Below, piece by piece: positions 23,349-45,705 of a stretch of 64,000 nt of DNA. The stretch's first letter is position 1. Every line of letters starts with the position of its first letter. This DNA comes from Limimaricola cinnabarinus (GTDB taxonomy: Bacteria; Pseudomonadota; Alphaproteobacteria; Rhodobacterales; Rhodobacteraceae): positions 63,362 through 127,361 of the forward strand of contig NZ_KZ304953.1 in the NCBI RefSeq assembly GCF_002723615.1, written 5' to 3'. Both the position numbers and the translations under genes were made by a program. The notes below the pieces were generated by a model, which did not search any database, was not told where the DNA came from, and saw only the letters and a program-made list of their open reading frames with translations.

Positions 23349-24008
23349 TCACCCCTTGAGCAGCCGCAGCCCCTGCGTCACGTCGGTCCGCACCGCGAGC
23401 CTGAGCCCCGGCTCGTCTCCCGCGCGGAGCGCGGCGAGGATGAGCTTGTGGTGATAGGGCGGCTCGGTGCGCCGCAGCCGCCCGTAGAGCGCGCGCATGG
23501 TGGGGCCGAGCTGCAGCCAGACGGTCTCGGTCATGGCGAGGATCGCGGGCGATTGGGCGCGCAGATAGAGCGTGCGGTGAAATTCGAGGTTCATGCGGAT
23601 GTAGCCGGTCGCGTCATGCCGCGCGACCATCTGGCTGACCCCGGCATTGATCGCCTCCAGCCGGTCGATCAGCGCGAAATGCGCCCGCGGCAGGGCGCGC
23701 GAGGCAAGCTCGGGCTCCAGCATGGCGCGCAAGCTCGCCAGCTCCTCGATCCGCTCATTGGTGAGCGCGGGCGTGGCCACCCGGCCCGAGGAAGAGAGCG
23801 TGAGCGCGCCCTCGGCCACCAGCCGCCGCACCGCTTCGCGCGCGGGCGTCATGGAGACGCCGAACAGCTTGCCGATGCCGCGCAGGGTCAGCGATTCCCC
23901 GGGCTCCATCTCGCCATGCAGGATGCGCGTCCTGAGCGCGCGGTAGACCCGGTCATGCGCGGCGCCGGTCGGGTCGGGCAGGCGCGGGCTCGCATTGGCG
24001 GGGATCAT
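23349..24008 (-). CDS. GntR-family transcriptional regulator (FCD subgroup)
   Basis: The 219-residue protein has an N-terminal winged helix-turn-helix (RVYRALRTRILHGEMEPGES, GKLFGVSMTPAREAVRRLVAEGAL) and a C-terminal helical FCD ligand domain. FCD metal-ligand positions are suggested by RMNLEFHRTLY and the later YHHKLILAAL. Such regulators usually respond to organic acids or related metabolites. The start overlaps the stop of the upstream metallopeptidase gene as ATGA, so the two appear translationally coupled although their functions seem unrelated. Confidence 0.9.
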   Translation of the reverse strand: MIPANASPRLPDPTGAAHDRVYRALRTRILHGEMEPGESLTLRGIGKLFGVSMTPAREAVRRLVAEGALTLSSSGRVATPALTNERIEELASLRAMLEPELASRALPRAHFALIDRLEAINAGVSQMVARHDATGYIRMNLEFHRTLYLRAQSPAILAMTETVWLQLGPTMRALYGRLRRTEPPYHHKLILAALRAGDEPGLRLAVRTDVTQGLRLLKG

Positions 24009-24739
24009 GCGAGCGTCTCGGCGGGGGCGGGGGCGGGGGCGGGGGCAGGGACGGAGAACTCGATCCGCTGCAGGCTGTCGCCACGTGTCCGAAGCCAGTC
24101 GCGCGCGGCGCGGTGATCGGGGTAGAGCCGCACGCAGACGGCCCAGAAGGCGGCGGAGTGATTCATCTCGGCCAGGTGGGCGACCTCGTGTGCGGCGACG
24201 TAATCGCCGATCTCGGGCGGCGCCATGACGAGCCGCCACGACAGCATGATGTCGCCCCGCGCGCTGCACGAGCCCCAGCGCGAGCGCGTGTCGCGCAGGC
24301 TCAGCCGCCGCACCGGGCGGCCCAGCGCCGCGGCGTGGCGGTCCACCGCCGCCGAGAGCCGGTCGCGGGCGCGGTCCTTGAGAAAGGCCATGATGCGCGC
24401 GGGCGCGCGGGCCGCGTCGTCGGGCAGGAGCAGCGTATCGCCATCAAGCGTCGCGCGGCGCACGGGGCCGGGGCGCAGCGCGATCTCGCGGCCCAGATAG
24501 GGCAGGCTGCCGCCAAGCCGCACCGGCCGCGCGGGGGCCACCTGTTCGAGATGCCCGCGCACCCAGGCCTCGCGCGCCTGCAGGAAGGCCAGCGCCTCGG
24601 TCTCGGGCGTGCGGCGCGGCAGGGTCAGCGTCACCCGGCCGTCGCGATGCGACACGCGCAGCGTGATCCGCCGCGCCCGGTCCGAACGGCGCAGCGCCAC
24701 CGTCAGGGGCGGATCGCCCGGCAGCACATGTTCTCCCAT
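24005..24739 (-). CDS. YgjP/DUF45-type M48-like metallopeptidase
   Basis: The ATG at 24739 (MGEHVLPGDPPLTV) yields 244 residues. The zinc site is visible in VAAHEVAHLAEMNHSAAFW (HExxH plus a downstream histidine), preceded by RDTRSRWGSCSARGDIMLSWRL, a segment diagnostic of the YgjP/DUF45 family. The C-terminus is an Ala-Pro repeat encoded by a GGGGGC-type microsatellite at 24023-24045. The function of YgjP proteins is uncertain. The gene is divergent from the FYDLN gene (147 bases between starts) and coupled to gntR downstream. Confidence 0.88.
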   Translation of the reverse strand: MGEHVLPGDPPLTVALRRSDRARRITLRVSHRDGRVTLTLPRRTPETEALAFLQAREAWVRGHLEQVAPARPVRLGGSLPYLGREIALRPGPVRRATLDGDTLLLPDDAARAPARIMAFLKDRARDRLSAAVDRHAAALGRPVRRLSLRDTRSRWGSCSARGDIMLSWRLVMAPPEIGDYVAAHEVAHLAEMNHSAAFWAVCVRLYPDHRAARDWLRTRGDSLQRIEFSVPAPAPAPAPAETLA

Positions 24740-27056: not shown

Positions 27057-28445
27057 TCAGGCGTGGATCGCGCCGTCGCCCAGCGCCAGCGCCGCCTCGC
27101 GCACGGCTTCCGAATAGGTCGGATGGGCGTGGCAGGTGCGGGCCAGATCCTCGGCCGCGGCGCCGAACTCCATCGCCACGCAGACCTCGTGGATGAGGTC
27201 GCCCGCCATCGGGCCGATGATATGCGCGCCGAGGATGCGATCGGTCTCCTTGTCGGCGAGGATCTTCACGAAGCCCTCGGCCGAATGGTTGGCCTTGGCG
27301 CGCGCATTGCCCAGGAAGGGGAACTTGCCGACGCGGTAGCCGCGGCCCTCTTCCTTGAGCTGCTCCTCGGTCTTGCCGACGGTCGCCACCTCGGGGTGGG
27401 TGTAGACCACGCCCGGGATCACCTCGTAGTTCACATGGCCCTTCTGTCCGGCGAGGATCTCGGCGATCGCCACGCCCTCATCCTCGGCCTTGTGCGCCAG
27501 CATCAGCCCCGGCACCGCGTCACCGATGGCATAGACGCCGTCGACGCTGGTCTTGAAGTGGTCGTCGATCCTGATCTGGCCGCGCTCGGTCATCTCGACG
27601 CCGAGCTCTTCGAGGCCGAGTCCCTCGACGTAAGGTTTCCGCCCCGTGGCCACGAGCACGGTGTCGACGGTGAGGCTCTCCTCGCTGTCATCCTTGCGGC
27701 TCTTCCAGGTGACCTTGGCCTTGTCGCCCTCGACCGTCACGCCCTGCACCGCCGCGCCGAGCACGAATTTCAGCCCCTGCTTGGTCAGGATCTTCTGGAA
27801 GTTGCGGGCGACCTCGGCATCCATGCCGGGCGTGATCGCGTCGAGATATTCGACCACGGTCACTTCCGCGCCCAGACGGCGATAGACCGAGCCCAGCTCC
27901 AGCCCGATCACGCCCGCGCCGATCACCACCATCTTCTCGGGGATCTTCTTGAGCTCCAGCGCGCCGGTGGAATCGACGACGATCTCGTTGTCGACCTCGA
28001 CATTCGGGATCGAGGAGGGGACGCTGCCGCTCGCGATCACGATGTTCTTGGCCTCGTGCGTCTCCTCGCCGACCTTGACCTTGCCCGCCTCGGGGATCGA
28101 GCCCCAGCCCTTGAGCCAGTCAATCTTGTTCTTCTTGAACAGGAACTCGATGCCGCCGGTGTTCTGACCGATGCTGTCGTTCTTGTAGGAGAGCATCTGC
28201 TGCCAATCGACGGTCGGCGTCTCGGCCTTCAGCCCCATCTTGGCAAAGTTGTGCTCGGCCTCGTGCAGCGCGTGGGTGGCGTGCAACAGCGCCTTGGAGG
28301 GGATGCAGCCGACATTGAGGCAGGTGCCGCCCAGCGTCTCGCGCCCCTCGACCACCGCGGTCTTGAGGCCGAGCTGGGCCGCCTTGATGGCGCAGACATA
28401 GCCGCCGGGGCCGGAGCCGATGACGATGAGATCGTAGGATGCCAT
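27057..28445 (-). CDS. lpdA: Dihydrolipoyl dehydrogenase (E3)
   Basis: The 462-residue flavoprotein has an N-terminal FAD motif ([22 protein letters not shown]), the redox-active disulfide [16 protein letters not shown], an NAD-binding motif ([21 protein letters not shown]) and a C-terminal interface domain with the active-site [15 protein letters not shown]. It reoxidises dihydrolipoamide on E2 and reduces NAD. The position downstream of odhA-odhB marks it as the E3 of the 2-oxoglutarate dehydrogenase complex, although it may serve other complexes too. Confidence 0.97.
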
Positions 28446-29659: not shown

Positions 29660-30904
29660 TCAGAGGTCCATCAGCAGGCGGCGCGGGTCTTCCAGCGCCT
29701 CCTTGACGCGCACGAGGAAGGTCACCGCGCCCTTGCCGTCGACGATGCGGTGATCATAGCTCAGCGCCAGATACATCATCGGCCGGATCTCGACCTTGCC
29801 GTTGATCGCCATCGGGCGTTCCTGGATCTTGTGCATCCCGAGGATGCCCGACTGCGGCGGGTTGAGGATCGGCGAGGACATCAGCGAGCCGTAGACGCCG
29901 CCATTCGAGATGGTGAAGGAGCCGCCCTGCATGTCGGCCATGCCGAGCTTGCCGTCGCGCGCCTTCACGCCCATCTCGGCGATCGACTTCTCGATCTCGG
30001 CAAAGCCCATGCTGTCGGCGTTGCGGATCACCGGCACGACGAGGCCGCTCGGCGTGCCGACGGCGACGCCCATGTGGACGTAGTTCTTGTAGACCACGTG
30101 ATCGCCGTCGATCTCGGCGTTGACGTCCGGCACCTCCTTCAGAGCATGCACGCAGGCCTTGGTGAAGAAGGACATGAAGCCGAGCTTCACGCCGTGCTTC
30201 TTCTCGAACAGCGCCTTGTACTCGTTGCGCAGTTCCATCACCGCGGTCATGTCCACCTCGTTGTAGGTGGTCAGCATCGCGGCGGTGTTCTGCGCCTCCT
30301 TGAGGCGGCGGGCGATGGTCTGGCGCAGGCGGGTCATCTTGACCCGCTCCTCGCGGTCGGCATCATCCGATGAGACGGGGCCACGGGCGGCGGGCTTGGA
30401 GGTCTCGGCCTTCTTCGGCGCGTTGAGCGCCTTCAGCACGTCCTCCTTCATGACCCGGCCATCCTTGCCGGTGCCCTTGACGTCGCCTTCCTTGAGGTCG
30501 TTCTCGGCCATCAGCTTCTTGGCCGAGGGCGCGTCCTCGGTGTCGCCTTTCGCCTCGCCCTTTTCGGCGGGCTCGCCCTCGGGCTCACCGGAGACATTGG
30601 TGGCCTCCTGCTGCTCCTTGGGACCGTCTTCCTTCGGAGCCTCGGGCTCGGCCTTCTCGGGCGCGTCGCCCTCGGAGACCTGCGCCAGCAGCGCGTCGAC
30701 GCCGACGGTGTCGCCTTCATTGGCGACGATCTCCGACAGCGTGCCGGCGACGGGAGAGGGGACCTCCACCGTCACCTTGTCGGTTTCGAGCTCGCACAGC
30801 ATCTCGTCCACCGCGACGGCATCGCCGGGCTTCTTGAACCAGGTGGCGACGGTCGCTTCCGAGACGCTCTCGCCGAGGGTGGGGACGCGGACTTCGGTGC
30901 TCAT
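29660..30904 (-). CDS. odhB: 2-oxoglutarate dehydrogenase E2, dihydrolipoyl succinyltransferase
   Basis: From the ATG at 30904 the protein has 414 residues. Residues 1-77 form one lipoyl domain with the lipoylated lysine in [11 protein letters not shown] proline/glutamate-rich linker follows, then an E3-binding domain ([20 protein letters not shown]) near residue 125. The catalytic domain ends [20 protein letters not shown], with the active-site histidine and aspartate. The single lipoyl domain and the LSYDHR.VDG form fit the succinyl transferase (SucB/OdhB) rather than pyruvate dehydrogenase E2. It starts two bases after odhA ends. Confidence 0.96.
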
Positions 30905-30906
30905 TC

Positions 30907-33870
30907 TCAGTTTCCTTCGATGCTCAGCGCTTCGTTCACCAGCGCTTCCTGTTGGGCCTTGTGCTGGCTGGCGAGGCCGGTCGCGGGCGAGGCGCTCGCG
31001 TGGCGGCCGACGTAACGGGGCCGCTTGTGCGCGGCGTCGATCCGGCTCAGCACCCATTCGATATTGGGCTCGATGAAGCTCCAGGCGCCCTGGTTCTTGG
31101 GCTCCTCCTGGCACCAGACCATCTCCGCCCCCTTGAACCGCTCAAGCTCCTTGACGAGCGACAGCGCCGGGAAGGGATAGAACTGCTCGATCCGCATCAG
31201 GTAGACGTCGTCGAGCCCGCGCGCGTCGCGCTCTTCCAAGAGGTCGTAATAGACCTTGCCCGAGCACATGACGACGCGCTTGATCTCTGCATCCGGCTTC
31301 AGCTCGGTGTCCGAATGGCCCTTCTCGGCATCGTCCCACAGCACGCGGTGGAAGGAGGAGCCGGTGGTGAAGTCCTCGGCATCCGAGATCGCCATCTTGT
31401 GGCGCAGGAGCGACTTGGGCGTCATCAGCACCAGAGGCTTGCGGAAGGTGCGGTGCAGCTGCCGGCGCAGGATGTGGAAGTAGTTCGCCGGCGTCGAGCA
31501 GTTGGCCACGATCCAGTTGTCGCCGCCGCACATCTGCAGGAAGCGCTCGAGCCGGGCCGAGCTATGCTCGGGGCCCTGGCCCTCATAGCCATGCGGCAGC
31601 AGCATCACGAGGCCCGACATGCGCAGCCACTTGGATTCGCCCGAGGAGATGAACTGGTCGAACATGATCTGCGCGCCATTGGCGAAATCGCCGAACTGCG
31701 CCTCCCACATCACCAGCGCGTTGGGCTCGGCCAGGGTGTAGCCGTATTCGAAGCCCAGCACCGCGTATTCCGAAAGCATCGAGTCGATGGCCTCGAACCG
31801 GGCCTGCCCCTCGCGGATGTGGTTGAGCGGGTAGTAGCGGTCCTCGTTCTCCTGGTTGATGAAGGCCGAGTGGCGCTGCGAGAAGGTGCCGCGGGTGCTG
31901 TCCTGCCCCGAGAGGCGAACCGGGTAGCCCTCGGTCAGAAGCGAGCCGAAGGCGATCGCCTCGGCCGTGGCCCAGTCGAAGCCGCGGCCGCTCTCGAACA
32001 TCTTGCCCTTGGCGTCGAGCAGGCGGCTGACGGTGCGGTGCAGCGGGAAGCCCTCGGGCGCGCGGGTGATGGCGCGGCCGATCTCGGTCATGGTCTTCTC
32101 GTCGATCGCCGTCTGGCCGCGCTGGTAGCTTTCGTGGTCGCGCCGGTCGAGATGGCTCCAGCGCCCGTCGAGCCAGTCGGCCTTGTTCGGGCGGTAGGAT
32201 TTCCCGGCCTCGAACTCGTCGCCGAGCATGGCCTGGAACTGGGTCTTCATGTCCTCGATCTCGCCCTCGGGGATCAGCCCGTCCTTGACGAGCCGCTCGG
32301 TGTAGAGCGTGAGCGTGGTCTTCTGGTTCTTGATCTTCTTGTACATCACCGGGTTGGTGAACATGGGCTCGTCGCCCTCGTTGTGACCGAAGCGGCGGTA
32401 GCAGAAGATGTCGATCACCACGTCCTTGTGGAACTTCTGCCGGAACTCGGTCGCCACCTTGGCGGCGTGCACCACCGCCTCGGGGTCGTCGCCGTTGACG
32501 TGGAAGATCGGCGCCTCGACCATCAGCGCGATGTCGGTGGGGTAGGGCGAGGAGCGCGAGAAATGCGGCGCGGTGGTGAAGCCGATCTGGTTGTTCACCA
32601 CGATATGCATGGTGCCGCCGGTGCGGTGCCCGGTCAGGCCCGACAGGCCGAAGCCCTCGGCCACGACGCCCTGGCCCGCGAAGGCCGCGTCGCCATGCAG
32701 CAGGATCGGCAGCACCTGGGTGCGCTCGGTATCGCCGAGCTGGCTCTGCTTGGCGCGCACCTTGCCGAGCACGACCGGGTTCACCGCCTCGAGATGCGAG
32801 GGGTTCGCGGTCAGCGACAGGTGCACCTTGTTGCCGTCGAACTCGCGGTCGGACGAGGCGCCGAGATGGTATTTCACGTCGCCCGAACCGTCGACCTCCT
32901 CGGGCTTGAAGCTGCCGCCCTGGAACTCGTGGAAGATCGCGCGGTAGGGCTTCTGCATGACATTGGCGAGCACCGAGAGGCGGCCGCGATGCGGCATGCC
33001 GATCACGATGTCCTTCACCCCGAGGCTGCCGCCGCGCTTGATGATCTGCTCCATCGCCGGGATCAGCGCCTCGCCGCCATCGAGGCCGAAGCGCTTGGTG
33101 CCCATGTATTTCACATGCAGGAACTTCTCGAAGCCCTCGGCCTCGACCAGCTTGTTGAGGATGGCGCGGCGGCCTTCCTCGGTGAACTTCACCTCCTTGC
33201 CATAGCCCTCGATCCGCTCCTTGAGCCAGGCCGACTGCTCGGGGTCCGAGATGTGCATGTATTGCAGCGCGAAGGTGCCGCAATAGGTGCGCTTCACCAG
33301 AGCGAGGATCTCGTTCATCGAGGCGATCTCGAGCCCGAGCACGTTGTCGATGAAGATCGGGCGATCCATGTCGGCCTTGGTGAAGCCGTAATTCGCGGGG
33401 TCGAGTTCGGGATGCGCGGTTTCCTCGCGCAGGCCCAGCGGGTCGAGATCGGCGGCGAGATGGCCGCGGATGCGGTAGGCGCGGATGATCATCAGCGCGC
33501 GGATGCTGTCGAGCACGGCGGCGCGCAGCTGTTCCTGGCTCAGCCCCACGCCCTTTTCGGCGGCCTTGGCGACGATCTTGTCGCGCGCGCCCTTGGCCTC
33601 GGCGGGGGCGGCCCACTGGCCGTCGAGCGCGGCGGTCAGGTCGTCATTGGGCTGCATCGGCCAGTCGGCGCGCGCCCAGGAGGGGCCGGCCGCTTCGGCA
33701 CGGGCGTCCGAGCCGGTGTCGCCGAGGCTGCGGAAGAACTCCTGCCACGCCTCGTCGACGCTCGAGGGATTCTCGGCATAGCGCGCGTGAAGCTGCTCGA
33801 TATAGTCGGCGTTCGTGCCTTGCAGGAAGCTGGAGGCGTGGAACACGTCGTTGGGGCTTTGATCGGTCAT
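30907..33870 (-). CDS. odhA: 2-oxoglutarate dehydrogenase E1 component
   Basis: The ATG at 33870 gives 987 residues, usual for E1o. The N-terminus contains the E1o linker to E2 ([23 protein letters not shown]). Catalytic and thiamine-diphosphate features are visible: [48 protein letters not shown] and [14 protein letters not shown]. It decarboxylates 2-oxoglutarate and passes the succinyl group to OdhB. It is co-directional with sucD, 109 bases downstream of it. That gap shows no strong terminator. Also called sucA. Confidence 0.97.
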
Positions 33871-33979: not shown

Positions 33980-34861
33980 TCAGCCGATGGCCTTCTTGAC
34001 CGCTTCGCCCAGCGTGGCGGGGCTGTCGGCGACCACGATCCCGGCGGATTTCATCGCCTCGATCTTGCTCTCCGCGTCGCCCTTGCCGCCCGACACGATG
34101 GCGCCGGCATGGCCCATGCGGCGGCCCGGAGGCGCGGTGCGCCCGGCGATGAAGCCGGCGGTGGGCTTCCAGCGGCCCTTCTTGCGCTGCTCGGCGAGGA
34201 ACTCGGCGGCCTCTTCCTCGGCGGTGCCGCCGATCTCGCCGATCATGATGATCGACTGGGTCTCGTCGTCGTCGAGGAACATGTCGAGGATGTCGATATG
34301 CTCGGAACCCTTGATCGGGTCGCCGCCGATGCCGACGGCCGTCGACTGGCCGAGGCCCATGTCGGAGGTCTGCTTGACCGCCTCATAGGTCAGCGTGCCC
34401 GAGCGGGACACGACGCCCACCGAGCCGCGCTTGTGGATGTGGCCGGGCATGATGCCGATCTTGCAGGCGTCCGGCGTGATGACACCGGGGCAGTTCGGCC
34501 CGATCAGCCGGGTCCTGGAGTTCTCCAGCGCCCGCTTGACCTTCATCATGTCGAGCACCGGGATGCCCTCGGTGATGCAGATCACCAGCTCCATCTCGGC
34601 GTCGATCGCCTCCATGATGCTGTCGGCGGCAAACGGCGGCGGCACGTAGATGACCGACGCATTGGCCTCGGTCCTGGCCTTGGCCTCGTGCACGCTGTCG
34701 AACACGGGCAGGTCGAGATGCGTCTGGCCGCCCTTGCCCGGCGTGACGCCGCCGACCATCTTGGTGCCGTAGGCGATCGCCTGCTCGGTGTGGAAGGTGC
34801 CCTGGCTGCCGGTCAGGCCCTGGCAGATGACCTTGGTGTTTTCGTCGACGAGAATCGCCAT
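33980..34861 (-). CDS. sucD: Succinyl-CoA synthetase alpha subunit
   Basis: The 293-residue protein has a CoA-binding Rossmann start ([21 protein letters not shown]), the [20 protein letters not shown] segment and the phospho-histidine in [16 protein letters not shown]. With SucC it converts succinyl-CoA to succinate while making ATP or GTP. The start lies 5 bases after the sucC stop, indicating one operon. Confidence 0.98.
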
Positions 34862-34866
34862 TGCTG

Positions 34867-36060
34867 TTATCCCTTCACCGCTTTGACGATCTTCTCGGCG
34901 GCGTCGGACAGGTTGTCCGCCGCGATCACGTCGAGACCGGAATTGTTGATGATCTCCTTGCCCTGATCGACATTCGTCCCTTCGAGACGCACGACCAGCG
35001 GCACCTGCAGACCGACTTCCTTGACGGCCGCGATCACGCCCTCGGCGATGACGTCGCAGCGCATGATGCCGCCGAAGATGTTGACGAGGATGCCTTTGAC
35101 GTTCTCGTCCGAGGTGATGATCTTGAACGCCTCGGTCACCTTCTCCTTGGTCGCGCCGCCGCCCACGTCGAGGAAGTTGGCGGGCTCGGCACCCTTGAGC
35201 TTGATGATGTCCATCGTCGCCATGGCGAGGCCCGCGCCGTTGACCATGCAGCCGATCTCGCCGTCGAGCGCGATGTAGTTCAGGTCATACTTGGAGGCGG
35301 CCAGCTCCTTGCTGTCCTCCTCGGTCTCGTCGCGCAGCGCGGCGATGTCGTCATGGCGGTAGATCGCGTTGCCGTCGAAGCCCATCTTGGCGTCGAGGCA
35401 TTTCAGATCGCCCTTGTCGGTGACGATCAGCGGGTTGATCTCCAGCATCTCCATGTCCTTCTCGAGGAAGAGACGGTAGAGCGTGTCCATCAGCTTGACG
35501 CACTGTTTCACCTGCTGGCCTTTCAGCCCCAGCGAAAAGGCAATGCGGCGGCCGTGATAGGGCTGGTAGCCGGTGGCCGGATCGACGGAGAAGGACAGGA
35601 TCTTCTCGGGCGTCTTCTCGGCGACCTCCTCGATGTCCATGCCGCCCTCGGTCGAGCAGACGAAGGAGACGCGGGAGGTGGCGCGGTCGACCAGCAGCGC
35701 GAGGTAGAGCTCGGTCTCGATCTCCGAGCCGTCCTCGATGTAGATGCGGTTGACCTGCTTGCCCGCCGGGCCGGTCTGATGCGTGACCAGCGTGCGGCCG
35801 AGCATCTTCTTGGCCTCTTCGGCGGCTTCCTCGACCGATTTGGCAAGGCGGACGCCGCCCTTTTCGCCGGCATCGGCTTCCTTGAAGCTGCCCTTGCCGC
35901 GGCCGCCCGCGTGGATCTGCGCCTTCACGACCCAAAGCGGGCCGTCGAGCTCGCCCGCCGCGGTCTTCGCCTCTTCCGCACGCATCACCGGACGCCCGTC
36001 GGAAACGGGCGCGCCGTAGCTGCGCAGAAGGGCCTTGGCCTGATATTCGTGGATGTTCAT
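34867..36060 (-). CDS. sucC: Succinyl-CoA synthetase beta subunit
   Basis: The ATG at 36060 ([20 protein letters not shown]) yields 397 residues, the standard length. The ATP-grasp features include [20 protein letters not shown] and [20 protein letters not shown]. The C-terminal domain has [20 protein letters not shown] and [14 protein letters not shown]. It leads the run sucC-sucD-odhA-odhB. Its upstream region contains a pair of GTGATCAC boxes about 100-125 bases before the start that also occur before sdhC. Confidence 0.98.
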
Positions 36061-36157
36061 GGACCGGTCCTCGGTTGCCGTGATTTGGCCCTTTGAACCA
36101 TACCGCGCGCCACAGAAGAACCGGTTTGTGCCGCCGACACCCGAAAAACCCACCGTT

Positions 36158-36186
36158 GTGATCACGCGAAAAATTCATGTGATCAC
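36158..36186. promoter_or_regulatory. Paired GTGATCAC operator-like boxes upstream of sucC
   Basis: Two perfect 8-bp palindromes GTGATCAC lie at 36158-36165 and 36179-36186, exactly 21 bp start to start. The flanks TTGTGATCACG and ATGTGATCACAA extend the similarity. They are 98-126 bases before the sucC ATG in the 231-base gap to the upstream glycosyltransferase gene. The same pair with the same spacing occurs before sdhC. The spacing is two helical turns, so two dimers could bind the same face. The regulator is unknown. Confidence 0.75.
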
Positions 36187-36291: not shown

Positions 36292-37170
36292 TCAGGCGCT
36301 CTTGAGCCGGTTCAGCCGCCTGCGCAGTCCCTTCTTGATCTGCTTGCCCTTGCTGACCACCGCCTTGCCGGCGGTGGGCTTCTTTTTCGCGGGCATGCGC
36401 GGCAGGCCGATGGGCTGGTCCTTCAAGGACCAGTCGCGGGTCAGCAGGCGGCGGGCATGGCGGTAGATCTTCGGCTCCACGCATTCCTTGAGATCGAAGG
36501 GCTGGGTCGGATCGCCCGGCTCCATCTTGTCGAGCCGCATCAGGTGCAGAATTCGCGGCGCGCCCATCTTCGGCTCCCGCCGGTCGAGCGCGGGGACATG
36601 CATCATGTTGTATTCGACCGGCAGCGCCACGAAGCGCAGATCCGATTCATAGAGCATGCGGCGGAAGGTCGGCTGGTCGAGATTGGCCTCCGAATCCCGC
36701 ACCGCATCTTCCCAGCGCTGCAGGAAATCGGTCAGGGCCGGGGTGCGGCGCAAGGCCAGCACGCCGGTATTGATCACCGGAAAGCTGCGCGGCACGTCGG
36801 CATCGGCATAGCCCATGCCGCGCCGGCGCACATTGCCGTGGCAGCCCGCGAATTCGAAGCGGTCGAGAATGTCGAACAGCTCCCAGACCGGGGCGAGAAA
36901 GATGAGATCGGCATCGAGCATGACCGTCCGCTCGAAGCGCGACCGCCGCATCGCCTCCATCTTGGGGCGGTGCCAGACATGCTCGACCTTGTGGATCTGG
37001 TCGAACACCGGATCGTCGATGTCCTGGTCGGTGAAGAGATCGACCTGCGCTTCCGGCATCACCATGCGCAGATTGCGCGCCGCGCGCTGCGCCATGATGG
37101 TGTAGCGCGGGCTTGTCGCGGCAAAGACGAAACCGCGATCGGAGGGCGCGGCGGCGGGCTGAGAAGTCAT
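36292..37170 (-). CDS. Glycosyltransferase-like protein (GT-A fold, paralogue 1)
   Basis: The 292-residue protein begins with GFVFAATSPRYTIMAQRAARNL and has the metal-binding DxD motif in ERTVMLDADLIFLAP, with INTGVLALRR and a conserved EYNMMHVP later. This layout matches GT-A nucleotide-sugar transferases (GT8-like). The last 40 residues are strongly basic. It is a paralogue of the next gene, 23 bases away. The acceptor is unknown, and no polysaccharide genes are nearby. Confidence 0.75.
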   Translation of the reverse strand: MTSQPAAAPSDRGFVFAATSPRYTIMAQRAARNLRMVMPEAQVDLFTDQDIDDPVFDQIHKVEHVWHRPKMEAMRRSRFERTVMLDADLIFLAPVWELFDILDRFEFAGCHGNVRRRGMGYADADVPRSFPVINTGVLALRRTPALTDFLQRWEDAVRDSEANLDQPTFRRMLYESDLRFVALPVEYNMMHVPALDRREPKMGAPRILHLMRLDKMEPGDPTQPFDLKECVEPKIYRHARRLLTRDWSLKDQPIGLPRMPAKKKPTAGKAVVSKGKQIKKGLRRRLNRLKSA

Positions 37171-37193
37171 GTCGAGGTCCTGGAATGAGGGGC

Positions 37194-38039
37194 TCAGATG
37201 GCGCGGCGCTTGAGATTGCCGAGAAATGTCCGCCAGCCGGTCTTGCGCGGGGTCGGCTTGACCGGATCGCCGCCGGTGACCGGAACGTAGTGCGACAATG
37301 TCTGATCGCCATCGAGCATTTCCGCAAGCTTCTTGATCTGCGGCGGCGCGAGGATCTCGCCCAGCTGGAAGGGCCGGGTCGGGTCGCCCGCCTCCCGCTG
37401 GTGCAGCTTGGGCTCGTGCAGCAGGCGCGGCGCGGTGAAGCCGGTGCCATTGAGCATGAAGGGCCTGAAGAACATCACGTTGTATTCGTCGGGCAGGATG
37501 TGAAGCCGCAGCGTGCCTTCGTAGAGCAGCACCCGCAGGGAGGGCTGGTCGAATTTCTGGGTGCCGTCATGCACCATGCGGTGCCAGTCGGCGAGAAGGG
37601 CGTCGGTCCGGGCCGACCGCCGGACCGCCATCACGCCGCTGTTCATCTGCGGAAAGGCGGGCGGCACCGGATGACCGGGCAGCTGTTCGCGGTTGCGGCG
37701 GTCGTTGCGGCGCTGGCTGGGAACGAGCGCGAGGTCGAAGCGATCGAGGATGTCGAAGACGTCGTCGATCGGTGCGAGCACCGCGATATCGGCATCGAGA
37801 TAGATCGTCCGCTCGAAGCGCGACCGCTGCATCGCCTCGATCTTGGGGCGGCGCGAGGCATGTTCGAGCAGATGCACCCGGTCGAAGATCTCGTCGTCGA
37901 TCTCGGCATCGGTGAACAGGTCGACCTGGCAGCGCGGCATGGCCTGCTTGAGATTGCGCGCCGCGCGGCGCGCAAGCGTGACATAGTCGTGGCCGGTGGC
38001 GGCGAAGACGAAGCCGCGATCTGGCGTGGAAGCGGTCAT
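37194..38039 (-). CDS. Glycosyltransferase-like protein (GT-A fold, paralogue 2)
   Basis: The 281-residue product from the ATG at 38039 shares with its neighbour the start DRGFVFAATGHDYVTLARRAARN, the SRFERTIYLDADIAVLAP motif with DxD, MNSGVMAVRR and EYNVMFFRP. The two arose by tandem duplication and are now quite diverged. It lies 58 bases after mdh on the same strand, between mdh and sucC. No signal peptide or membrane helix is seen, so it probably acts in the cytoplasm or peripherally. Confidence 0.75.
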   Translation of the reverse strand: MTASTPDRGFVFAATGHDYVTLARRAARNLKQAMPRCQVDLFTDAEIDDEIFDRVHLLEHASRRPKIEAMQRSRFERTIYLDADIAVLAPIDDVFDILDRFDLALVPSQRRNDRRNREQLPGHPVPPAFPQMNSGVMAVRRSARTDALLADWHRMVHDGTQKFDQPSLRVLLYEGTLRLHILPDEYNVMFFRPFMLNGTGFTAPRLLHEPKLHQREAGDPTRPFQLGEILAPPQIKKLAEMLDGDQTLSHYVPVTGGDPVKPTPRKTGWRTFLGNLKRRAI

Positions 38040-38097
38040 GGCGGCGCGGCTCCTTGGCGGAGCGGCCCGAAGGCGGGCCGCTCCCTTTGGCTCAGGA

Positions 38098-40348
<2,251 letters not shown>

Positions 40349-41768: not shown

Positions 41769-41818
41769 GGCTGCGCGGATCGCCGCGGCCTTCGAGATTC
41801 CGCATCCGCCCGGCATCC

Positions 41819-41847
41819 GTGATCACAGCCTTCGGGAGTGTGATCAC
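41819..41847. promoter_or_regulatory. Paired GTGATCAC operator-like boxes upstream of sdhC
   Basis: GTGATCAC occurs at 41819-41826 and 41840-41847, 21 bp start to start, identical in sequence and spacing to the pair before sucC. The boxes are flanked by CCGCCCGGC (41806-41814) and GCCGGGCGG (41848-41856), so the whole region forms an extended inverted repeat with a four-base bulge. They are 142-170 bases before the sdhC ATG in the 220-base gap after the DUF1737 gene. Confidence 0.75.
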
Positions 41848-41988
41848 GCCGGGCGGAATCCTGCCTGATTCCGGGATTTTTCAGCATTCAGCAGCGTCGT
41901 GGCGGGTGACAGGCCGCGCAAAATCGCTAGGGATAGGCCAGCCGGGGCCGCGGCAACGCAGGCCCGCACGCCAGATAAGGACGACGCC

Positions 41989-42372
41989 ATGGCCGATGTG
42001 AACCGGGGCAACCGCCCTCTTTCGCCCCATATCACCATCTACCGCCCGCAGATCACCTCGATCACCTCGATCCTGACGCGGATCACCGGCAACGCGATGA
42101 TCGTCGCCGCCGCGCTGATCGTCTGGTGGTTTGCCGCTGCTGCCGCCGGCCCGGCGAGCTTCGCCACCGCCGACGGCTTCCTGCGCAGCTGGTTCGGCGA
42201 TCTGGTGCTGTTCTTCTCGGTGCTGGGCCTGTGGTACCACACGCTGGCGGGCATCCGGCACCTGATCTGGGACGAGGTGAAGATGCTCGAGATCGACAAG
42301 GCCGAGCTTCTGGGCCAGATCATCCTGATCGTCTCGGTCCTGCTCACCATCTTCACCGTCGTCGTTCTCTGA
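41989..42372 (+). CDS. sdhC: Succinate dehydrogenase cytochrome b556 subunit
   Basis: The ATG at 41989 (MADVNRGNRPLSPHITIYRPQ) gives 127 residues with three helices. RPLSPHITIYRPQITSITSILTRITG is the SdhC signature, and WYHTLAGIRHLIWDE contains the haem-ligand histidine. It anchors complex II and takes part in quinone binding. It is first in sdhC-sdhD-sdhA-lipoprotein-sdhB, 11 bases before sdhD. Confidence 0.96.
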   Translation: MADVNRGNRPLSPHITIYRPQITSITSILTRITGNAMIVAAALIVWWFAAAAAGPASFATADGFLRSWFGDLVLFFSVLGLWYHTLAGIRHLIWDEVKMLEIDKAELLGQIILIVSVLLTIFTVVVL

Positions 42373-42383
42373 AGGGGCAACCA

Positions 42384-42755
42384 ATGGCTTACCTGACCGA
42401 CCGCAAGCGCGCGCACGGCCTCGGCGCCTCGCATTCCGGGACCCGCCAGCACTGGCGCATGAGCATGTCCTCGGTGGCGCTGGCCGTGCTGATTCCGCTC
42501 TTCGTCTTTACCTTCGGCGCGGTGCTGGGCGGCACCTATGAAGAGGTGGTGATCTACTACCAGCGTCCGATTCCGGCGGCGATCGCCGTGCTGACCTTCA
42601 TCGTCGGCTTCTGGCATTTCCGCGCCGGCGCCCAGGTGATGATCGAGGATTACGCGCAGGGCTTCGCCCGCCGCGCGCTGATCATCGGCGTGACCTGCCT
42701 TTCCTATGCTCTGGCCGCGATCGGCGTTCTCGCCCTGATCCGCCTCGCCCTCTGA
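42384..42755 (+). CDS. sdhD: Succinate dehydrogenase membrane anchor subunit
   Basis: The 123-residue protein has three helices ([56 protein letters not shown]) and the SdhD motif [13 protein letters not shown], with haem- and quinone-site residues. It forms the membrane dimer of complex II with SdhC. The start is 11 bases after sdhC and the stop 13 bases before sdhA. Confidence 0.95.
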
Positions 42756-42768
42756 TCGGAGACCCCTG

Positions 42769-44574
42769 ATGGCAGCCTACGAATACGAAACCCACGAATA
42801 CGACGTGGTGGTGGTCGGCGCCGGCGGCGCGGGCCTGCGCGCGACCCTCGGCATGGCCGAGCAGGGCCTGCGCACCGCCTGCATCTCCAAGGTCTTCCCG
42901 ACCCGCAGCCACACCGTCGCGGCGCAGGGCGGCATCGCCGCCTCCCTGGGCAACATGGGCCCCGACAGCTGGCAGTGGCACATGTACGACACGGTGAAGG
43001 GCTCCGACTGGCTCGGCGACACCGACGCCATGGAATACCTCGCCCGCGAGGCCCCCAAGGCGGTCTACGAGCTGGAGCATTACGGCGTGCCGTTTTCGCG
43101 CACCGAAGAGGGCAAGATCTACCAGCGCCCCTTTGGCGGCCACACCACCGAATACGGCGAAGGCCCGCCGGTGCAGCGCACCTGCGCCGCCGCCGACCGC
43201 ACCGGCCACGCGATCCTGCACACGCTCTACGGACAAAGCCTCAAGCAGAAGGCCGAGTTCTACATCGAGTATTTCGCCATCGACCTGCTGATGGATGATG
43301 ACGGCACCTGCCGCGGCGTTCTGGCGTGGAAGCTCGATGACGGCACCATGCATGTCTTCGCCGCCAAGACCGTGGTTCTGGCCACGGGCGGCTATGGCCG
43401 GGCCTATTTCTCGGCGACCTCGGCCCATACCTGCACCGGCGATGGCGGCGGCATGGTGGCGCGGGCGGGCCTGCCGCTGCAGGACATGGAGTTCGTGCAG
43501 TTCCACCCGACCGGCATCTACGGCGCGGGCTGCCTCATCACCGAAGGCGCGCGCGGCGAGGGCGGCTACCTCACCAACTCCGAGGGCGAGCGCTTCATGG
43601 AGCGCTACGCACCCACCTACAAGGATCTCGCCTCGCGCGACGTGGTCTCGCGCTGCATGACCATGGAGATCCGCGAGGGGCGCGGCGTCGGCAAGGATGG
43701 CGACCATATCCATCTGCACCTCAACCACCTGCCGCCCGAGACCCTCGCCGAGCGCCTGCCCGGCATCTCGGAATCGGCGCGGATCTTTGCGGGCGTGGAC
43801 CTCACGAAAGAGCCGATCCCGGTTCTGCCGACCGTGCATTACAACATGGGCGGCATTCCCACGAACTACTGGGGCGAGGTGCTCAACCCGACGAGCGACA
43901 ACCCCGATGCCGTCACGCCCGGCCTGATGGCCGTGGGCGAGGCGGGCTGCGCCAGCGTGCACGGCGCCAACCGTCTGGGCTCCAACTCGCTGATCGACCT
44001 CGTGGTCTTCGGCCGCGCCGCAGCGATCCGCGCGCGCGAGGTGGTCGATCCCGCGACCGCCGTGAAGGCCCCGGCCAAGGCCGCGATCGAGAAGGCGTTC
44101 GACCGCTTCGACGGGCTGCGCCATGCCAAGGGCGGCGTGCCCACCGCCGAGCTGCGCATCGAGATGCAGCGCAACATGCAGGCCGACGCGGCGGTGTTCC
44201 GCACCGACAAGACGCTGGCGGAAGGCATGAAGAAGATGCAGGCCACGGCGGCGAAGATGGACGATCTGCATGTCACCGACCGCAGCCTCGTGTGGAACTC
44301 CGACCTGATGGAGACGCTGGAGTTGGCGAACCTGATGCCCAACGCGCTGGCCACCATCACCGCCGCCGAGGCGCGCAAGGAGAGCCGCGGCGCCCATGCG
44401 CATGAGGACTACCCCGACCGCGACGACGAGACTTGGCGCAAGCACTCGCTCGCCTGGGTCGAGGGCAACAGCGCGCGGCTCGACTACCGGCCGGTGCATC
44501 TCGATCCGCTGACCGAAGAATCGGATGGCGGCATCGAGATCAAGAAGATCGCGCCCAAGGCGCGGGTCTACTGA
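42769..44574 (+). CDS. sdhA: Succinate dehydrogenase flavoprotein subunit
   Basis: The 601-residue protein has the FAD motif [23 protein letters not shown] and the covalent-flavin histidine in [18 protein letters not shown]. It also has the substrate-site segments [27 protein letters not shown] and [27 protein letters not shown]. It oxidises succinate to fumarate on the cytoplasmic face of complex II. The stop overlaps the next start by one base (TGATG). Confidence 0.98.
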
Positions 44575-44861
44575 TGCGCTCCGCGCTGCTCCTCGTACTG
44601 CCCCTTCTGGCGGCGGCCTGCACCCAGGCCCCGCTGTCGCCGCTCGACGCGGCGCGGGTCTGCGAGGAGCGGGCGCGGGCGGCACAGGCGCCGACCGGCG
44701 CCGTCAGCATCGGCGCCAGCTCGCGCAGCGGGCTGTCGACCGGGCTTTCGATCGGCGTCAGCGGCGACTATCTGCGCGGGCGCGATCCGCTCGCCGTCTA
44801 CGAAGACTGCGTCCTGTCCCGCAGCGGCCAGCTCCCCGTGCGCCCGCCACGTCTGAGATGA
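44574..44861 (+). CDS. Small lipoprotein encoded between sdhA and sdhB
   Basis: The 95-residue product starts [20 protein letters not shown], a lipoprotein signal with the lipobox LAAAC. The mature part is about 80 residues: [18 protein letters not shown], then a serine/glycine-rich stretch ([20 protein letters not shown]) and [10 protein letters not shown], with two cysteines that could form a disulfide. It is translationally coupled to sdhA. The function is unknown; placement suggests a link to complex II or the envelope. From memory a hypothetical gene sits in the same place in R. sphaeroides. Confidence 0.85.
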
Positions 44862-44925
44862 CCAGATCCCATGCGACGACGACCGGGGCCCCGCGCCCCG
44901 GCGCTTTCCCCAAGGAGACCTGACC

Positions 44926-45705
44926 ATGGTCCAGCTCACCCTGCCCAAGAACAGCCGCATCACCCACGGCAAGACCTGGCCCAAGCCCGAAGGGGCCAAG
45001 TCGCTCAAGAAGATCCAGATCTACCGCTGGAACCCCGATGACGGGAAGAACCCGCGCGTCGACACCTATTTCATCGATCTCGACGATTGCGGGCCGATGA
45101 TTCTCGATGCGCTGATCAAGATCAAATCCGAGATCGACCCGACCCTGACCTTCCGCCGCTCCTGCCGCGAGGGGATCTGCGGCTCCTGCGCGATGAACAT
45201 CGACGGGATCAACACGCTGGCCTGCACCTACGGGCTCGACGAGGTCGCGGGCGACATCAAGATCTACCCGCTGCCGCACATGCCGGTGGTCAAGGACCTG
45301 ATCCCCGACCTCACGCATTTCTACGCGCAGCACGCCTCGATCAAGCCCTGGCTCGAGACCGAGACCAACACGCCCGCCAAGGAATGGCGCCAGTCGATCG
45401 AGGACCGCAAGAAGCTCGACGGTCTTTACGAGTGCATCATGTGCGCGTCCTGCTCGACGGCCTGCCCCTCCTACTGGTGGAACGGCGACCGCTATCTCGG
45501 GCCGGCGGCGCTTCTGCACGCCTATCGCTGGATCGTCGACAGCCGCGACGAGGCGACGGGCGAGCGGCTCGACGATCTCGAGGACGAGTTCAAGCTCTAC
45601 CGCTGCCACACCATCATGAACTGCGCCAAGACCTGCCCCAAGGGGCTGAACCCGGCCAAGGCGATCCAGTCGATCAAGCACATGATGGTCGAGCGCGCCG
45701 TCTGA
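44926..45705 (+). CDS. sdhB: Succinate dehydrogenase iron-sulfur subunit
   Basis: The 259-residue protein has the 2Fe-2S motif [16 protein letters not shown] plus a later cysteine (TLACTYG), the 4Fe-4S motif [17 protein letters not shown], and the 3Fe-4S region [17 protein letters not shown]. It carries electrons from SdhA to quinone in SdhCD. It starts 64 bases after the lipoprotein gene with AAGGAG upstream, and ends the sdh operon before a hairpin. Confidence 0.98.

Follow-up and report, generated by a model that had tools for sequence, protein, structure and literature searches.

A conserved pair of palindromic boxes, predicted to form a two-site operator, precedes the suc and sdh operons of Rhodobacteraceae

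Introduction

Control of TCA-cycle genes by a regulator of the GntR family has been proposed for Rhodobacter (Cereibacter) sphaeroides, where cluster 48 of the network of Imam et al. 2015 predicts that RSP_0981 controls sucCD, sucAB-lpd and sdh (PMC4344238) and where, according to the same paper, no CRP or ArcAB analogues are predicted (PMC4344238). This regulon resembles the one described below in its GntR-family regulator and in its suc, sdh and 2-oxoglutarate dehydrogenase targets, and differs from it in being a computed network, the text of which gives no operator architecture. An experimental test of the RSP_0981 prediction was not found in the literature searched, most subscription journals lying outside the search, and among the papers covered RSP_0981 is named by Imam et al. 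2015 alone, and literature string searches with GTGATCAC and TGTGATCACA returned nothing relevant.

Other described systems share part of these features. PdhR of Shewanellaceae is a GntR regulator with a reconstructed regulon including sdhCDAB and other TCA genes (PMC5343134), but it is pyruvate-responsive, belongs to another group and gives a short, weak match to the GntR protein considered here (5kvr, E 7e-4). The ScfR regulators (PccR, RamB, PrpR) act on operators of two near-identical short boxes (PMC10370305), but they are of the XRE family, recognize other boxes and are missing from some genomes carrying the present operator. The closest solved structure by sequence is McbR (YncC) of Escherichia coli (PDB 4p9f, E 2.4e-18), which likewise combines a GntR helix-turn-helix with an FCD domain. 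McbR is devoid, however, of the NLEFH motif common to 31 of 31 compared GntR orthologs. Its role concerns colanic acid and biofilm genes, unlike the TCA role proposed here.

Here we describe two pairs of palindromic boxes in a 64,000-nucleotide stretch of the Limimaricola cinnabarinus genome (hereafter, the window). Judging from sequence comparison, the pair is very probably a two-site DNA operator bound by the GntR/FCD protein encoded at 23349-24008, which would co-regulate suc and sdh.

Results

The spaced pair GTGATCAC-N13-GTGATCAC is present in the window as exact copies at 36158-36186 and 41819-41847, in agreement with the original prediction of identical pairs with 21-bp spacing before sucC and sdhC. 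The relevant features are the following:

36158..36186, minus strand: predicted operator pair, 97 bp 5' of sucC (exact match; 77 fetched loci have this sequence in the same place)
41819..41847, plus strand: predicted operator pair, 141 bp 5' of sdhC (exact match; 55 fetched loci have a pair in the same place, ahead of the sdh operon)
36061..36157, minus strand: sucC leader/promoter region (family A/T tracts phased at ~10 bp to the boxes and a TATA-rich element ~70-73 bp past the pair, from pooled sequences)
34867..36060, minus strand: sucC, succinyl-CoA synthetase beta, first gene of the sucCD-sucAB-lpd cluster (translation and tblastn matches to relatives)
33980..34861, minus strand: sucD
30907..33870, minus strand: sucA, 2-oxoglutarate dehydrogenase E1 (start near 33870)
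29660..30901, minus strand: sucB, dihydrolipoyl succinyltransferase (start near 30901)
27057..28445, minus strand: lpd, dihydrolipoamide dehydrogenase (Pfam)
41989..42372, plus strand: sdhC, first gene of sdhCDAB
42390..45705, plus strand: sdhD, sdhA and sdhB
23349..24008, minus strand: GntR/FCD transcription factor, proposed regulator (Pfam GntR 3e-14, FCD 1.2e-19; co-occurrence; conserved position)
24005..24739, minus strand: gene for a YgjP-like metallopeptidase, the conserved upstream neighbour of gntR (Pfam; ygjP-gntR pair in 10 of 10 relatives examined)

The distances are counted from the ATG start codons of sucC (36060, minus strand) and sdhC (41989, plus strand), with 97 and 141 bases, respectively, between pair and ATG. 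The single box GTGATCAC occurs five times in the window against 0.82 expected, a number reached in 0 of 100 shuffles, the fifth copy (56288) being a lone one within a coding frame. No other exact spaced pair is present in the window, where the next best places have 3 mismatches, in line with the original prediction, which had noted no other pair. In the whole genome (3,798,789 bp), matches with 0-1 mismatch are found only at the sucC and sdhC pairs, and the genome scan proposed with the original prediction thus retrieves the exact pair nowhere else in 3.8 Mb; five further places match with 2 mismatches.

The sdhC-side pair sits inside a longer inverted repeat (41792-41866; GATTCCG..CCGCCCGGC .. 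GCCGGGCGGAATC), for which a strong hairpin with a TTCG loop is predicted. This repeat may be the terminator of the small gene upstream, and the family consensus shows no comparable symmetry around the boxes. Between sucC and mdh lie two tandem glycosyltransferase-like genes (36292-38132, one with a PF03407 match), unlike the arrangement of several relatives, in which mdh directly adjoins the sucC operator. An acidic low-complexity exported protein with two PRC-barrel domains is encoded at 39227-40348, between mdh and a citE-like gene.

Conservation was evaluated in a Rhodobacteraceae sample of 198 genomes, one per genus except for two from the window's own genus. Allowing at most one mismatch at 21-bp spacing, the pair was found in 172 of 198 genomes, and the exact pair at 20- or 21-bp spacing in 174 of 198, the reversed control pattern giving 0 in both cases. 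Outside the family, matches were limited to two genomes of a class sample of 385. In a collection of named genomes at least 120 stretches matched, and those among the matches listed were mostly from Rhodobacteraceae (Phaeobacter, Ruegeria, Sulfitobacter, Paracoccus, Defluviimonas, Jannaschia, Roseovarius and many other genera).

The 166 exact pairs in the fetched loci were located before sucC in 77 cases, before the sdh operon in 55, before fumC in one and before sucA in one, at a distance from the gene of mostly 108-115 bp for sucC and 115-155 bp for sdhC. The 33 pairs left unassigned were, in Rhodobacteraceae, mostly sucC or sdhC sites with the gene past the contig end or with too diverged an sdhC; elsewhere, most of them fell within open frames of unrelated bacteria. 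Variations on the theme included a third pair 5' of fumC (fumarase) in G042 (L021), and, in G177 (L024), a locus with mdh followed by sucA rather than sucC, with the pair 5' of sucA. Both refuting conditions named with the original prediction turned out in its favour: within Rhodobacteraceae, the pair is uncommon inside genes or 5' of unrelated ones, and it is kept at the sucC and sdhC promoters of relatives across the family. As far as sequence comparison goes, the double palindromes appear to be real switch sites before the same two Krebs-cycle operons in almost the whole family.

Intergenic GTGATCAC-like units repeated about every 21 bp (AAGTGATCAC...) were also noticed at 2550-2720 of L146 and 3800-3930 of L132, neither of which is a sucC or sdhC locus; these resemble mobile-element ends and are probably unrelated to the operator.

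The consensus of 131 sites reads TTTGTGATCACAC-(AT-rich)-GTGTGATCACAAA, with half-sites that abut within each 8-mer, TTTGTGATCAC ... GTGATCACAAA. The 21-bp spacing that was predicted holds in L. cinnabarinus and is not universal, since at least seven relatives have 20 bp and some have three boxes. Indeed, G009, G055, G066, G087, G133 and G151, apparently negative, carry a pair in the same place at 20-bp spacing, and an exact pair emerged in G158 once both spacings were allowed. A scan of the apparent negatives over spacings of 17-26 bp turned up only 20 bp, the family otherwise having 21. In G135 and G191, three boxes with a 21-bp period are found 5' of sucC. Boxes placed two helical turns apart (20/21 bp), the spacing needed for proteins to cooperate on a single DNA face, would thus allow dimers to sit on the same side of the helix, probably cooperatively.

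In pooled sequences of both promoter sets, A/T-rich tracts recur about every 10 bp over the 70-90 bp from the boxes towards the gene, with peaks at about 1, 10.5, 21, 30.5 and 41 bp past the pair, and beyond. The amplitude at 10-10.5 bp was 8.2 for sucC and 8.7 for sdh, whereas 500 randomly shifted controls did not exceed 2.5 and 3.2, respectively; upstream of the boxes it was about 3.3 (sucC) and 2.0 (sdh). The sucC and sdh A/T profiles correlate with r = 0.55 over 91 positions, above all 90 circular shifts. The tracts are weak in the window, which is GC-rich. The sucC set has a TATA-containing element with its peak 70-73 bp past the pair and a C/G-TTTA element at 45-50, which we read as putative -10 and -35 regions. 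On this reading, the centre of the operator would lie ~95-100 bp upstream of the presumed sucC start site, and the boxes ~45 bp upstream of the presumed -35 region, with no promoter overlap.

These positions bear on the sign of the regulation. A tentative and, taken as a whole, rather unlikely reading is that the boxes and the A/T array form one evolved curved-DNA module, in which GntR dimers on two or three boxes spaced by two turns would engage or wrap the 70-90 bp of phased DNA, activating RNA polymerase at suc and sdh; this would set the system apart from GntR/FCD proteins in general, which usually act by simple promoter blocking. A serious contender, to which we give somewhat less than an even chance, is that the same GntR represses suc and sdh from afar, by looping or by blocking, and that a TCA metabolite releases it. 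Phased tracts would favour a repression loop too, and many characterised GntR/FCD proteins are repressors, whereas the distance of the boxes from the presumed -35 region speaks against this variant. Activation by the GntR/FCD protein is slightly favoured over repression by looping, because the presumed promoter lies well downstream of the operator and the phased tracts suggest that the DNA is bent.

The proposed regulator is encoded past the far end of the sucCDAB-lpd cluster and has an N-terminal GntR winged helix-turn-helix (PF00392, 52.9 bits, cut-off 27) and a C-terminal FCD domain (PF07729, 71.4 bits, cut-off 24.3). With a strong ortholog defined by E below 1e-55, ortholog and exact operator were both present in 171 of the 198 genomes and both absent in 18, with the operator only in 3 and GntR only in 6 (Fisher p = 1e-17, a value that overstates independence, as the genomes lacking both include divergent lineages). 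Restricting the comparison to genomes at least 90% complete gave 155, 15, 2 and 3, respectively (p = 6e-17). On the SucC tree, the site trait changes 5 times and gntR 6, and well-supported branches yield just 2 independent pairs, a number insufficient for testing.

As for the discordant genomes, those with the operator and no strong ortholog are G019, G096 and G114, two of them 91% and 77% complete and the third in about 320 contigs. Among those with GntR only, one-mismatch pairs are present in G040, G155 and G166, the sucC match of G061 is a mere fragment, and the completeness of G122 and G147 is 76% and 73%, respectively.

Gene neighbourhood is stronger evidence than co-occurrence for the assignment. 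The ygjP-gntR pair adjoins lpd in G012, G042, G066, G093, G124, G154 and G197, directly after sdhB in G051, and elsewhere in G009 and G041. In G090, a small operator-bearing genome with only three GntR genes and no ScfR, the GntR ortholog is encoded next to lpd, and that contig also carries the operator. The only intergenic match outside the family in the class sample (G344, L038) consists of three boxes within the promoter of a gene for a GntR/FCD protein that shares 33% identity with the window GntR (E 1e-28). The triple box is absent from the other four genomes of that family, and thus remains a single case. No operator was found at gntR itself, so that autoregulation does not back the assignment.

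The usual FCD metal-ligand set is Asp-x3-His ... His ... His. In 31 orthologs of the window GntR, N140-x3-H144, H187 and D209 are invariant, the first and last ligands thus differing from that set; a single-sequence model (pLDDT 54.7) was too poor to place them. Such a variant of the metal-binding set would, as a conjecture, suit a carboxylate effector.

It is improbable that a different regulator binds the operator and that GntR is a core-lineage gene linked to it by chance. This alternative draws on the fact that presence profiles are confounded by phylogeny, most site-lacking genomes being divergent, and that GntR and ScfR were the only families profiled; it is countered by the positional linkage of GntR on either side of the cluster, by the three boxes 5' of a related GntR gene in another family and by the independent prediction in R. 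sphaeroides (PMC4344238).

Binding by ScfR, the XRE-family short-chain fatty acyl-CoA regulator whose tetramers sense CoA esters and whose known operators are near-identical box pairs such as TTTGCAAA, was an attractive candidate, given that ScfR operators consist of two nearly identical boxes (RamB, PMC10370305), that PrpR is a tetramer (PMC6765138) and that the window genome has three ScfRs, the PccR-like one with two TTTGCAAA boxes, 32 bp apart, near its start. It is now most improbable, being largely refuted by genome distribution: G090 and G136 carry the operator and no ScfR (no PF09856 protein), strong ScfRs occur in G017, G054 and G194, which lack the operator, and the ScfR box sequence differs from GTGATCAC.

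The two TTTGCAAA boxes of the PccR-like ScfR gene (L165, 2905-2944, 32 bp apart) are next to a propionyl-CoA carboxylase gene and fit an ScfR operator, as expected. A divergent ScfR-like XRE protein lacking the IrrE-like (M78) domain is encoded in L167 (1-2800), where its gene adjoins those for a single-domain response regulator and a sodium:solute-symporter-type sensor, in a CbrA-like layout.

Other known factors were also considered. The original prediction had described the palindrome as GntR- or CRP/FNR-like in form; of these two factor types, GntR is supported and is narrowed, by co-occurrence and neighbourhood, to one gene of the window, whereas a CRP/FNR operator needs half-sites about 11 bp apart (TGTGA-N6-TCACA or TTGAT-N4-ATCAA), and here they abut. 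The RedB motif is a non-palindromic AT-rich 12-mer and its TCA effects are indirect, those of PrrA are likewise described as indirect, and FnrL and CrpK, weighed from the R. capsulatus and R. sphaeroides papers, were rejected.

Finally, that the boxes act at the RNA level, as a hairpin (attenuator, terminator or stability element), rather than as a DNA operator is scarcely credible: the two 8-mers can pair mutually and the window sdhC copy lies in the inverted repeat noted above, but a spacing fixed at 20/21 bp is needless for a hairpin loop, triple boxes exist, the sucC pair is upstream of the likely -10 element, and flanking positions pair hardly above independence (for example, 0.71 vs 0.66 and 0.43 vs 0.50), so that an RNA stem is not what is conserved and the attenuator was rejected.

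Discussion

The mechanism we propose is that a GntR/FCD dimer would bind each 8-bp palindrome through the half-site GTGA, with the dimers on one face of the DNA and probably cooperating across two turns. The same protein and operator before sucC and sdhC would place 2-oxoglutarate dehydrogenase, succinyl-CoA synthetase and succinate dehydrogenase under joint control, i.e., the 2-oxoglutarate-to-fumarate arc of the TCA cycle, which fumC may join in one relative. In the activation variant, curved DNA would bring the bound regulator to RNA polymerase. The signal would probably be a TCA-related carboxylate held in the FCD domain. That one regulator serves both operons, as had been suggested from the window, is strongly supported on computational grounds by the family-wide conservation at both promoters.

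Genome G051, which we take to be R. sphaeroides 2.4.1 and in which RSP_0981 would be expected just after sdhB, carries in that very place a GntR 74% identical to the window GntR, together with operator pairs before sucC and sdhC. The window GntR is thus an apparent ortholog of RSP_0981. In view of the earlier prediction for RSP_0981, the original prediction had rediscovered, from raw sequence, the operator of a computationally proposed regulon. What is new here is the exact operator architecture, its family-wide conservation, the strict two-turn spacing and the phased A/T tracts, which, being common to two unrelated promoters, suggest that DNA geometry takes part in the mechanism.

Abundant marine roseobacters and model phototrophs both belong to Rhodobacteraceae, a family in which the tuning of the TCA cycle is poorly known. 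With the exact operator kept in nearly nine out of ten sampled genera, the network prediction becomes a directly testable question, on what would be a clean, family-wide regulon of central metabolism with an unusual phased-DNA feature.
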